DNA of 64,000 nt, taken from Thermotogota bacterium. Its GTDB lineage: Bacteria; Thermotogota; Thermotogae; Thermotogales; Fervidobacteriaceae. This document shows positions 1-52,099 of the stretch, in pieces. The DNA lies in assembly GCA_030550315.1 (NCBI GenBank), contig JAUQPP010000002.1:1-64000 (forward strand), given 5' to 3'. Positions within the stretch are counted from its first letter, which is position 1, and every line of letters starts with the position of its first letter. Position numbers and translations under genes: made by a program. The notes beneath the pieces are model-generated. The model had not been told where the DNA came from. It saw only the letters and a program-made list of their open reading frames with translations, and made no database searches.

Positions 1-957
1 GTTTGTGCCTGCGATACCTAAATCCGCATTTTTTCCTTCACCAATACCGTTAACGACACATCCAAGTACCGAAACCCTTATTGGTTTGTTAACGCTTGAC
101 AAAGCTCTCTCGACTTCCATTGCAATATCTTCTACATCGAACACACTTCGCGCACAAGTTGGGCAGGCAATAACGTCTACACCTTTCCGCAACCTCAGAA
201 AGGTAAGCAATTTCTTCGCTGCGATGACCTCGTTGACAGGGTCACCGGATATCGAGATGCGAAGTGTATCGACTAGTCCTTCCAGCAAAAGCACGCCGAG
301 CACGATAGAAGATTTGATAAGTGAATTGTACAGCGTACCAGCCTCGGTAACACCTACGTGTATAGGATACTCGATGTGTTTTGCTATATACCTGTTTGCA
401 TCTATTGTTTCCATCACATCCGAACTTTTAACAGATACGACAATGTTTTCAAAACCAAATCTTTCGAGAATTCGTACTTCTCTCAGTGCCGCTTCCGCAA
501 GTGCCTGCCATTTGGGCAGCGAAGAAAGGTCTTTTGGCAGTGAACCACTATTTGCTCCAACACGAATGGGTATACCGTATTCTCTCGCTACTGCGACAAC
601 CTCTCGAATTTTCACTTCGCTTCCGATGTTTCCAGGATTTATCCTGATTTTGTCTACGCCGTTTTTAATAGCTTCAATTGCTATTCTGTGGTCAAAATGT
701 ACGTCTCCTACAATGGGGATGGAGACAGATTCTTTAATTTCACGAACCAATTTGGTACATTCAATGTCCGGTAATGAGATTCGGACAATTTCGCATCCTG
801 CGAGTTCCAGCTGCCTAATTTGTTCTACTGTTGCTCGAACATCGTGCGTATCTGTATTTGTCATCGACTGGATTGTTATGGGGGTTCCTCCACCTATGGT
901 TAAGCTCCCAACTCGTACCAACTTCGTTTTCCTGCGTGGAAAATTAGCGCTGGACAA
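1..957 (-). CDS. ispG: 4-hydroxy-3-methylbut-2-enyl diphosphate synthase (IspG/GcpE), C-terminus cut by window edge, TTG start
   Basis: Minus-strand translation from TTG at 957 reads MSSANFPRRKTKLVRVGSLTIGGGTPITIQSMTNTDTHDVRATVEQIRQLELAGCEIVRIS..., typical IspG N-terminus; AAGGAGG Shine-Dalgarno just upstream (966-973). Absent from the ORF track; the + ORF 5..988 is its antisense. Confidence 0.95.
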   Translation of the reverse strand, partial: MSSANFPRRKTKLVRVGSLTIGGGTPITIQSMTNTDTHDVRATVEQIRQLELAGCEIVRISLPDIECTKLVREIKESVSIPIVGDVHFDHRIAIEAIKNGVDKIRINPGNIGSEVKIREVVAVAREYGIPIRVGANSGSLPKDLSSLPKWQALAEAALREVRILERFGFENIVVSVKSSDVMETIDANRYIAKHIEYPIHVGVTEAGTLYNSLIKSSIVLGVLLLEGLVDTLRISISGDPVNEVIAAKKLLTFLRLRKGVDVIACPTCARSVFDVEDIAMEVERALSSVNKPIRVSVLGCVVNGIGEGKNADLGIAGTN

Positions 958-39894: not shown

Positions 39895-41769
39895 ATGAGA
39901 GAGCAAGAGTTAATTGAAAAGATAAGAAAAATGAACTACGCTCAACTTGAGGAGTTTGCCAGAGAGGTTAGGCGTTACATAATTTCCGTTGTTTCGAAGA
40001 ATGGCGGACACCTTGCATCCAACCTTGGAACAGTTGAACTTACGCTCGCATTGTACAGGGTATTCGACCCTTTTGAGGATATCATCATTTGGGATACGGG
40101 GCACCAGACTTACACTCACAAGTTGCTCACTGGACGATGGGACACATTTCCAACGCTGCGCACATTTGGCGGAATATCTGGCTTCACTAATATATTCGAA
40201 TCTCCAACAGACAGGTTTGGTGCTGGTCATGTGGGGACCTCTATAGCAGCGGCGCTTGGTGTGGAAAAAGCTTTGAATTTACAGGGCGTAAAGAAAAACA
40301 TTGTGGTTGTTATTGGCGACGGAGCACTCACGAGTGGTGAAGCACTCGAAGCACTGAATCAGATAAAATCACAGAACTCTAAGATAAAGATTATTGTCAA
40401 CAGCAACGGGATGAGCATCTCCAAAAATGTTGGAGGGTTAGCACTTTTACTTGAAAACCTCCGAACAAGTCGTGTTTACAACAAATTAAAAGAGCTCGTC
40501 AAAAAAGGTCTCAACGACGCAGCCGAACTTGAGCTTAAGAAGATACGCGAGGCACTTAAAGTAGCGCTTGTGGGTGAAGACTTTTTCGAGTCACTTGGTC
40601 TGAAGCACTTTGGACCCATAGATGGACATGACATACACGACTTAGAACAAGCATTGAAGGGCATAAAGGACTATCCGTATCCCACAGTACTCACAGTTTT
40701 CACAGTCAAAGGAAAAGGTTACCAATTCTCAGAAGGCAATCCGACCAAGTTTCACGGAGTTGACAAGTTCGATCCAGATTCTGGGACTTTCGAAAAACCT
40801 GACGGAGCGGTATCTTATAGCGAGGTATTTGGTAACGCGCTTGTTCATATTGCAAGAAGGGATTCACGAGTCGTGGCTCTGACGGCTGCTATGCCGGATG
40901 GTACAGGACTTAGCGCGTTTGCGAGTGCCTTTCCAGAAAGGTTTGTTGATTTAGGTATCACGGAACAGTCCGTAGTCACGTATGCCGGTGCACTTGCGTT
41001 ATATGGCATGAAGCCTGTGGTGGCCATCTATTCCACGTTTCTGCAAAGGGCGTACGACCAAATCATACACGATGTAGCACTTCAGCGCTTGAAAGTAGTA
41101 TTTGCAATTGATCGTGCCGGGCTTGTGGGAGCCGATGGACCAACACACCACGGTGTTTTCGATATTGCATTCTTAAGACCTGTTCCGAATATACAAATCT
41201 TAACTCCACTTGATGCTAAAGATTTAGTGAATATGCTTGCTTTCATATTAGAAAACTTTGAAAAACTAAACGGACCGGTTGCCATAAGGTATCCAAGGGA
41301 TGTTGAGTTTGCCAAACTTGAAGAGATATGTGGTAAAATAGAACCAGTTGAACCGTACAGCTGGAAATTGAAGATTTCGGGTAAGAATGTAGCTTTGCTA
41401 AGTGTAGGCACGTTAACACGGCTATATGAAGAAGTGTGTCAAAGAAATGACTGGACCCTAGTTGGAGTGAGGAGCGTAAAGCCTTTGGATATCGTGATGC
41501 TGAAAGACGTTATTGAAAATCATGATGTTGTTGTAACTATTGAAGAAGGAACACTAAATGGAGGGTTTGCGGAAGCAGTGAATTCTTTCATTATGAGCAA
41601 TTTATTCGCAGACAAAGTCAAGATAATTAACATAGGCATAAAAGATCAATTTGTACCTCACGGTTCGCGAGAAGAACTCTTAAGATACACAGGTTTAGAC
41701 CCGGCCACCGTCGAGAAACGAGTGACGGAGTTTTTCCAAGTAAATGGCATAGTTGCAAGAAAGGGGTGA
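39895..41769 (+). CDS. dxs: 1-deoxy-D-xylulose-5-phosphate synthase
   Basis: GGHLASNLGTVELTLALYRVFDPFEDIIIWDTGHQTYTHKLLTGR...VVIGDGALTSGEALEALN. Confidence 0.96.
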   Translation: MREQELIEKIRKMNYAQLEEFAREVRRYIISVVSKNGGHLASNLGTVELTLALYRVFDPFEDIIIWDTGHQTYTHKLLTGRWDTFPTLRTFGGISGFTNIFESPTDRFGAGHVGTSIAAALGVEKALNLQGVKKNIVVVIGDGALTSGEALEALNQIKSQNSKIKIIVNSNGMSISKNVGGLALLLENLRTSRVYNKLKELVKKGLNDAAELELKKIREALKVALVGEDFFESLGLKHFGPIDGHDIHDLEQALKGIKDYPYPTVLTVFTVKGKGYQFSEGNPTKFHGVDKFDPDSGTFEKPDGAVSYSEVFGNALVHIARRDSRVVALTAAMPDGTGLSAFASAFPERFVDLGITEQSVVTYAGALALYGMKPVVAIYSTFLQRAYDQIIHDVALQRLKVVFAIDRAGLVGADGPTHHGVFDIAFLRPVPNIQILTPLDAKDLVNMLAFILENFEKLNGPVAIRYPRDVEFAKLEEICGKIEPVEPYSWKLKISGKNVALLSVGTLTRLYEEVCQRNDWTLVGVRSVKPLDIVMLKDVIENHDVVVTIEEGTLNGGFAEAVNSFIMSNLFADKVKIINIGIKDQFVPHGSREELLRYTGLDPATVEKRVTEFFQVNGIVARKG

Positions 41770-50110: not shown

Positions 50111-51100
50111 GTGGACCTGTATTTCATCAAGGTTCGGGCGAGGAGTAAAGGAACAGCGGAAGAGATAATAGGTTATTTCTTTGGAAAGACGAACAGTGCA
50201 CCAGATTTTGATTTTCTGGTTGTTCCTATTAGGTACTCGAGCTTAATTTTAATTGATCAGTTTACTTTGGAAGAAAATCTCTCAGAATTTAAGGAAAAAC
50301 TTACAAAAGTCAAAGAAAACCTCAAAACCCAATCGAATGTGAGCGATGTAACGCTGGCTTTTTTAACTTATTTGAACAACGTTATGAATCGTCGTGGTAA
50401 GATCCCGCTGGGAATCGAATTCACAACCGCTATAAAGGAAGATGATGAAGAAGTCTTAAAGCTCATTATATCTGATTTGCTCGAAGAATGGAGCCCAAAA
50501 ATGGAAGTACTGGTCAAGGCAGAAGCCTTGACGTTAGAGGAATATTCTGCTTTAACCTTTTTCGACGTACAGGAGGACTTCTCAGATCCAGGAATTGCGC
50601 AGATTTATTCAAGACCAGATATTGTGGATTTACCCGAGGTCTTCCCGGTTATAGATCCGATAAACGGTGTCAGTATTGTCCAGTTTGACGTTGGTGATAA
50701 GATCCCTGTAGTTGTGTTGAACTACGGTAAGTACGAATCAGCTATTAAGAGCAAGATTCCTGATGTAGACACAACTAAGAGGGCTATCGAAGGAACTTTG
50801 GTCAGTAAGGAATTGTTGAGGGTCAAAGGTGGTACCGTTTATCTTATCAAGGTTGAGATTGCCGAAGGGATTGTTGGGAAAGGGCTAATTAGCCCAGCTT
50901 TAAAGATCCTAACGGACGAGACTTATTTTATGAGGAAGCGTTCAAGTGCAGTGTGGGAACAATCTGAACGTCAACCAGGTGTGAAGGAAATTAAATTGCA
51001 TGTGCCACCGACCACTGGTAACGAATTGTTGATTGCCTTCATGACAACGTTGCTTGTCACAGGTGCTTTGCTCATATTGGTTTATATATTTACCAAGTGA
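50111..51100 (+). CDS. Hypothetical protein, C-terminal single TM anchor
   Basis: Well-formed 329-aa ORF; C-terminus NELLIAFMTTLLVTGALLILVYIFTK; no family recognised. Confidence 0.7.
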   Translation: MDLYFIKVRARSKGTAEEIIGYFFGKTNSAPDFDFLVVPIRYSSLILIDQFTLEENLSEFKEKLTKVKENLKTQSNVSDVTLAFLTYLNNVMNRRGKIPLGIEFTTAIKEDDEEVLKLIISDLLEEWSPKMEVLVKAEALTLEEYSALTFFDVQEDFSDPGIAQIYSRPDIVDLPEVFPVIDPINGVSIVQFDVGDKIPVVVLNYGKYESAIKSKIPDVDTTKRAIEGTLVSKELLRVKGGTVYLIKVEIAEGIVGKGLISPALKILTDETYFMRKRSSAVWEQSERQPGVKEIKLHVPPTTGNELLIAFMTTLLVTGALLILVYIFTK

Positions 51101-51118
51101 GGGAGGTTATCGGCAAAG

Positions 51119-52099
51119 TTGAAGATTCAAAAAATAAGTGGCGAGTTCGTTGAAGAAGTTGCCAAGCTGATTTATCTGGAGAAGCAAAATTTCTACGATG
51201 AGCTCTTTGGCAGTGATGCCTTAAAGTACATAGAAAAAGCCTTGACTAACGATATCCCGCCGTTTCAAAAGGACTATGGATTAGTTGCTGTCGAAGACGG
51301 GAAGGTACTTGGTACGCTTCTTTTTGCGGACAAGGCTTCATTTAGACACGGTTATCAGAAGTGGTTGAAAATCCTGGGACTGAAGATATTTCCAGTGGGA
51401 AGCAAGATGATTTACATAATTCAAAGATTACTTATCGAGTTCGGAGTTAACGACCTATACATCGTAGCGTTGGCTGGGAATGTCAAGGAATATCTCTTAT
51501 ACACGTTCATCAAGCAAAATAGGTATAGGAAAGTCATAGTGGACACTGCGGATGATAAATTTTACACGAAGTTTGGTTTCCACGAGGGTACTCCCGTCCA
51601 CAACAAACTGAGGCGTTATGAGAAGCTTTGCGACTACGAAACGTTATCCGGTATCGGGTGGGATACGCACCCACTGATAAATGGTCGTGAACTCATTCTT
51701 GGAGGAGTAAAGATAGAGAATCAATTTGGATTAGATGGCCATTCTGACGCGGATGTTCTTTGCCATGCAATAATCGACAGCTTACTTGGGGTAGCCCTGA
51801 AAACGGACATAGGAATGCTCTTTCCTGAAACTGCTGAAAACAAGAATCGTAAGAGTTTGGAAATGCTTAGGAAAGTTGTTCAAAACTTGAATTTCCAGGG
51901 GTACTTTCCCTCATCGATAGACTGTGTTATAATCTCACAGGTGAAGTTGAGTTCCTACCGACAAATGATGATTGAAAGTGTTGAGAGTGTTACAAACTGT
52001 CCTGTTTCGATCAAGTTCAAGTCCGGGAATGGTGTATACCCGGAATCGGAGTTCAAGGGGATTACTGCTATTTGCGTGAGTAACGTGGAAAAAATATGA
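51119..52099 (+). CDS. Fusion: N-terminal GNAT-like acetyltransferase domain plus C-terminal IspF-like domain
   Basis: N-part: GLVAVEDGKVLGTLLFADK...VNDLYIVALAGNVKEYLLYTFIKQNRYRKVIVDTADDKFYTKFGF; C-part: SGIGWDTHPLINGRELILGGVKIENQFGLDGHSDADVLCHAIIDSLLGVALKTDIGMLFPETAENKNRKSLEML. Confidence 0.8.
   Translation: MKIQKISGEFVEEVAKLIYLEKQNFYDELFGSDALKYIEKALTNDIPPFQKDYGLVAVEDGKVLGTLLFADKASFRHGYQKWLKILGLKIFPVGSKMIYIIQRLLIEFGVNDLYIVALAGNVKEYLLYTFIKQNRYRKVIVDTADDKFYTKFGFHEGTPVHNKLRRYEKLCDYETLSGIGWDTHPLINGRELILGGVKIENQFGLDGHSDADVLCHAIIDSLLGVALKTDIGMLFPETAENKNRKSLEMLRKVVQNLNFQGYFPSSIDCVIISQVKLSSYRQMMIESVESVTNCPVSIKFKSGNGVYPESEFKGITAICVSNVEKI

Follow-up and report, generated by a model that had tools for sequence, protein, structure and literature searches.

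A single gene in the window under study (the whole 64,000-nucleotide stretch at the start of contig JAUQPP010000002.1 from a Thermotogota bacterium of the Fervidobacteriaceae) probably encodes, at odds which we put at roughly two in three, a sole MEcPP synthase with an N-terminal pseudo-acetyltransferase acting in cis on its IspF domain. The open frame (51119-52099, forward strand) is uninterrupted, begins with TTG and encodes 326 amino acids, and all the GNAT-like and IspF strings quoted in an earlier sequence-only reading are present in this one ORF. A check for a frameshift or an assembly join detected none, and an artefact joining 2 genes is ruled out because the same architecture lies within one frame in 19 further genomes. 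The aligned starts of the relatives of the fusion gene are preceded by a similar Shine-Dalgarno-like site. The features of the locus are as follows:

51119 to 52099, forward strand: gene fusing a putative pseudoGNAT to IspF, same architecture in 20 of 20 genomes of the Fervidobacteriaceae
51101 to 51106, forward strand: Shine-Dalgarno-like gggagg, 5' of the TTG start and right past the stop of the DUF4899 gene, read from the sequence
51119 to 51646, forward strand: N-terminal domain of predicted GNAT fold, residues 1-176 (AlphaFold2, Foldseek, hhalign)
51332 to 51439, forward strand: beta3-beta4 insertion, residues 72-107 (conservation, AlphaFold2 model)
51473 to 51487, forward strand: remnant of the acetyl-CoA pyrophosphate loop, residues 119-123, reading AGNVK; the intact relatives show AVDKxYRGRGxGxK here
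51650 to 52087, forward strand: IspF (YgbB) domain, residues 178-323 (Pfam PF02542, Foldseek)
51662 to 51670, forward strand: Zn ligands D182-T-H184 (E. coli D8 and H10), invariant in the alignments
51764 to 51766, forward strand: Zn ligand H216 (E. coli H42), invariant in the alignments
52019 to 52030, forward strand: K301-S-G-N304, standing for T132-T-T-E135 of the E. coli CDP diphosphate/Mg site (alignments)

The C-terminal half of the protein was readily assigned to IspF. Residues 178-323 match Pfam YgbB (PF02542) with 135 bits against a cut-off of 26.7 (E=3.7e-39), and a Foldseek comparison of the best full-length model with solved IspF structures gave a probability of 1.00 and a TM-score by target of about 0.8. 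Residues D8, H10, H34, S35, D38, H42, D56 and G58 (E. coli numbering) are invariant in 20/20 fused proteins, the 3 Zn ligands Asp8, His10 and His42 among them. A whole-genome search of the assembly, which is 98.6% complete, returned the window gene as the only YgbB match and no second ispF, answering the question of a canonical copy elsewhere. The companion genes dxs (39895-41769) and ispG (4-927, minus strand, truncated by the contig edge) were both located in the window, as had been claimed, and dxr, ispD and ispH are also encoded in the genome. Since it is the sole ispF, alongside dxs, dxr, ispD, ispG and ispH, the fusion protein is very likely, on this gene content, the working MEcPP synthase of the cell and not a spare paralogue. 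Its chemistry would be ordinary, with Asp, His and His holding Zn, the 2-phosphate attacking the beta-phosphate and CMP being released, and would run with a CDP site typical of core Thermotogota, where the second-metal ligand Glu135 has become Asn and Thr132 has become Lys.

IspF is essential and a target for both antibacterial and antimalarial agents; most descriptions present it as a trimer that stands alone or as part of an IspDF fusion. Compared with the stand-alone enzymes (E. coli, T. thermophilus, B. subtilis; PF02542), the fusion protein is alike in fold, Zn ligands, HSD motif, DIG motif and status as sole genomic copy, whereas it adds the N-terminal GNAT-fold domain, carries Asn for Glu135 and Lys for Thr132, and lacks F139 and the cavity pair R142/E144. 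The IspDF enzymes of C. jejuni (1w55) and H. pylori (8xhu) likewise consist of two domains with IspF at the C-terminal end, but the partner here is GNAT-fold instead of the IspD cytidylyltransferase; Pfam detected no IspD domain in the fusion protein, and IspD is a separate gene on another contig.

Regarding the C-terminal motif, a gapless alignment places KSGNGVY where TTTEKLG is expected, exactly as claimed from the sequence, and the alteration of the CDP/metal site is borne out at K301 and N304. The E. coli enzyme uses Glu135 to bind the second metal (Mg or Mn) together with the CDP phosphates. K132 and N135 are found in 55/55 aligned core-Thermotogota IspFs (20 fused, 33 without a comparable N-domain and 2, L052 and L053, with another N-extension), so that all 55 rows have Asn in place of an acidic residue (Glu/Asp) at 135, and deep-branching lineages have T132 and E135 in 13/13 aligned rows (TTNE/TTTE). 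Of 70 IspFs from outside the phylum, 64 have Glu at position 135, 2 have Asp and 3 have Asn, while 1 shows a gap there; Lys at 132 is common (21/70). Published surveys describe position 135 as strictly D/E in 450 sequences (PMC2151065) and as 81% E plus 18% D of 854 (PMC3927217); an acidic 135 is therefore not an absolute criterion, and as the acidic residue is near-universal in those surveys, Asn135 across the core of the phylum is a notable natural exception. An altered use of the second metal may follow in core-Thermotogota IspF.

The sequence-only reading had implied a link between this motif and the fusion, and this link is refuted: KSGN occurs in every core-Thermotogota IspF sampled, stand-alone ones included, so in the alignments the motif is independent of the fusion. 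A single event giving rise to both was rejected on the same finding. In E. coli IspF, residues 139, 142 and 144 shape the isoprenoid-binding core cavity (PMC2151065), and these are not retained in the fused proteins; at 142-144 the alignment is uncertain for more divergent families. Two further departures in this region were recorded. Asp56 of the DIG motif (E. coli numbering) is Asn or Ser in 18/35 core IspFs outside the fused family, another active-site change, seen in families f9 and f10 (e.g. L057-L071, L016-L020), and 3 sequences from outside the phylum (L101, L105, L108) have TTTN, that is Asn135 without Lys132, in frames of 382-399 amino acids which are possibly IspDF fusions.

A repurposed IspF domain, which would no longer be a MEcPP synthase, had also been proposed. 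The changed CDP/metal motif and an NCBIfam ispF score slightly under the cut-off (114.5 against 116.45) speak for it, but the gene is the only ispF of a genome in which ispD, ispG and ispH are present, every Zn and catalytic residue is retained, and stand-alone, sole-copy IspFs throughout the core phylum carry the same motif; we regard this idea, unsupported by these data, as highly improbable.

The GNAT nature of the N-domain is hardly shown from the single sequence. Pfam Acetyltransf_7 remained under threshold on the window protein (E=0.17, 12.7 bits against a gathering value of 27) and matched 2 of 19 N-domains, with a best E of 0.017, and a search of the PDB with an N-domain sequence profile yielded nothing useful. 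An AlphaFold2 model of the N-domain, built on 7 window and locus sequences, reached a pLDDT of 83.6 and a pTM of 0.81 and predicted the element order b1-a1-a2-b2-b3-insertion-b4-a3-b5-a4-b6-b7. With this model as query against the PDB, Foldseek returned GNAT-fold structures for all of its 50 best matches, the top one being 4m85_C (E=8e-8). A weak match of the N-domain profile led to a stand-alone GNAT of ~200 amino acids in a Thermosipho-type genome, and 10 such relatives were collected from these genomes, that of the window's own genome included (G000:C33, locus L173). Comparison of both sets by hhalign gave 97.0% and E=1.2e-10 over 159 columns, a homology which takes in the beta3-beta4 insertion. 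The predicted model and the profile match to real GNATs together uphold the GNAT fold attributed to the N-domain.

The same comparison located what the fused domains have lost. The motif R/Q-x-x-G-x-G/A between beta4 and alpha3 is absent in all the aligned N-domains (19, from the 20 fused proteins) and present in 10/10 stand-alone relatives, in which R-G-x-G-x-G is invariant. In the joint alignment, about 10 residues (VDKxYRGRGx) are missing from the fused domains exactly at the loop site, where the remnant is variable and shows a 3-residue indel between genera. The N-x-x-A-x-x-(L)Y segment past beta5 is also partly missing; the stand-alone GNATs retain both YRGxGxG and the downstream N-x-x-A-x-x-LY, whereas the fused domain has neither of them intact. 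With none of the 19 aligned N-domains retaining the pyrophosphate loop, binding of acetyl-CoA seems unlikely, and the linked acetyltransferase suggested earlier finds no support. A missing loop does not by itself prove inactivity, since some GNATs bind acyl-CoA through unusual loops, but on these alignments the N-domain would be catalytically inactive.

Conservation appears to have moved to the beta3-beta4 insertion, a pattern consistent with a pseudo-enzyme that has been retained for a different function. The insertion has the lowest mean entropy among the larger elements of the N-domain and holds 12 of its 31 invariant residues (K72, F75, R76, Y79, W82, L86, G87, K89, G94, K96, I101 and L105). 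It is mostly helical in the AlphaFold2 model, where it is the least certain region (pLDDT 58-76), and the stand-alone GNATs have an insertion at the equivalent place. The invariant residues of the insertion could be catalytic, and a still active acyltransferase, with a non-canonical acyl-CoA site and acting on some metabolite or protein close to the MEP pathway, would agree with the GNAT fold and with the number of invariant polar residues (K22, D27, K72, R76, Y79, K89, K96, D112, Y114 and D142), which exceeds what a pure scaffold needs. We consider this activity improbable, given that the pyrophosphate-binding loop is deleted, its site is variable with indels and the segment past beta5 is shortened too.

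The fusion proved to be a family trait. Across 103 genomes of the phylum Thermotogota, it was present with the same N-domain in 20/20 genomes of the Fervidobacteriaceae, covering 5 genera, Fervidobacterium and Thermosipho among them, with ispF frames of 329-359 amino acids. Outside these 20 genomes, where the domain was always fused and matched the N-domain profile strongly (E below 1e-70), the profile gave only 4 marginal matches (E 0.001-0.009); the domain on its own, unfused, was not found in the 103 genomes, and the IspF of Thermotoga-type relatives is without it. Within the family the gene order glgD-glgC-(DUF4899)-fusion is conserved; at other loci of the phylum, most of which have short flanks, ispF was never found next to any of these flanking genes. 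In the window, the DUF4899 protein (50111-51100) lies directly 5' of the fusion and is its neighbour in most of the family. An earlier description of an IspF-GNAT fusion was not found in the open-access literature.

Several irregular loci were recorded in this survey. In 2 members of family f11 (L052:4131-4922 and L053:4439-5290), IspF carries a different N-terminal extension of ~120 amino acids, which by eye looks like the latter half of a GNAT without the loop; a relation of these extensions to the GNAT domain was not demonstrable by hhalign (0.2% and 0.7%), yet their IspF domains cluster with the fused family at moderate support (86/81, long branches), so that an older origin common to both is conceivable. 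One draft genome has ispF broken into 3 frames (G041:C7:407989-408445, L051), probably by sequencing errors, and in 2 genomes with a completeness of at least 93% (G002 and G055) ispF was not found, which may reflect assembly gaps. IspH (G000:C62:1314-2114 and family genomes) has frames of 700-890 amino acids in 2 family genera and of about 812-819 in another, probably an IspH fusion, whose partner may be ribosomal protein S1, against 270-276 in the remaining ones.

The N-domain is under purifying selection, with a dN/dS of 0.07-0.11 in 4 pairs of relatives (counting method, where a value was obtained); when the window is paired with its genus-mate, dS has reached saturation. Its substitution is slightly faster than that of the IspF domain in 4/5 usable comparisons. 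This somewhat faster evolution would suit a purely structural or assembly module, serving thermostability and trimer or higher-order assembly without any ligand or regulatory role, as would the thermophilic hosts and the N-terminal partners that IspDF enzymes tolerate on the IspF trimer (1w55 and 8xhu are among the Foldseek matches). Such a module is unlikely, as the invariant residues, many of them charged or aromatic, are concentrated in a single insertion, which is more like a binding site, and Thermotoga-type relatives do without the domain.

The closest described parallel of a loop-less GNAT domain is yeast acetylglutamate kinase (NAGK). Its DUF619/GNAT domain has the R/Q-x-x-G-x-G/A motif replaced and the acetyl-CoA site blocked, and deleting the domain showed that it makes the enzyme more stable, slows its catalysis and modulates its feedback (PMC3329491). 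Both proteins have thus lost the motif in a GNAT domain fused to a biosynthetic enzyme, but the yeast domain is C-terminal, belongs to another enzyme and has a proven stabilising and feedback role, whereas here the domain is N-terminal and its role inferred. On account of this parallel, we favour an in-cis regulatory or structural role for the N-domain of the pseudo-acetyltransferase-IspF protein. A GNAT domain would have been joined in frame ahead of ispF in the ancestor of the Fervidobacteriaceae, from a subfamily that persists as intact stand-alone enzymes in these genomes, and the pyrophosphate loop would have been lost after that fusion. What remains would stabilise the IspF trimer, tune its activity or both, perhaps with the strongly conserved insertion as the binding site for a partner or for some ligand that is not acetyl-CoA. 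A bolder version is possible though doubtful: the N-domain would sense a ligand unrelated to CoA (an isoprenoid diphosphate, a nucleotide or a partner protein), replace the lost feedback site of the core cavity (Arg142/Glu144, Phe139) and control MEP flux, and core-Thermotogota IspFs would at the same time need no second metal, Lys132 taking the place of Mg/Mn.

With IspF fused throughout the family to an acetyltransferase that appears dead, bacteria would have their own counterpart of yeast NAGK, and whether a MEP enzyme is controlled in cis can be tested directly. The Asn that the core of the phylum carries in place of a supposedly required acidic ligand offers a natural test of the need of IspF for its second metal.
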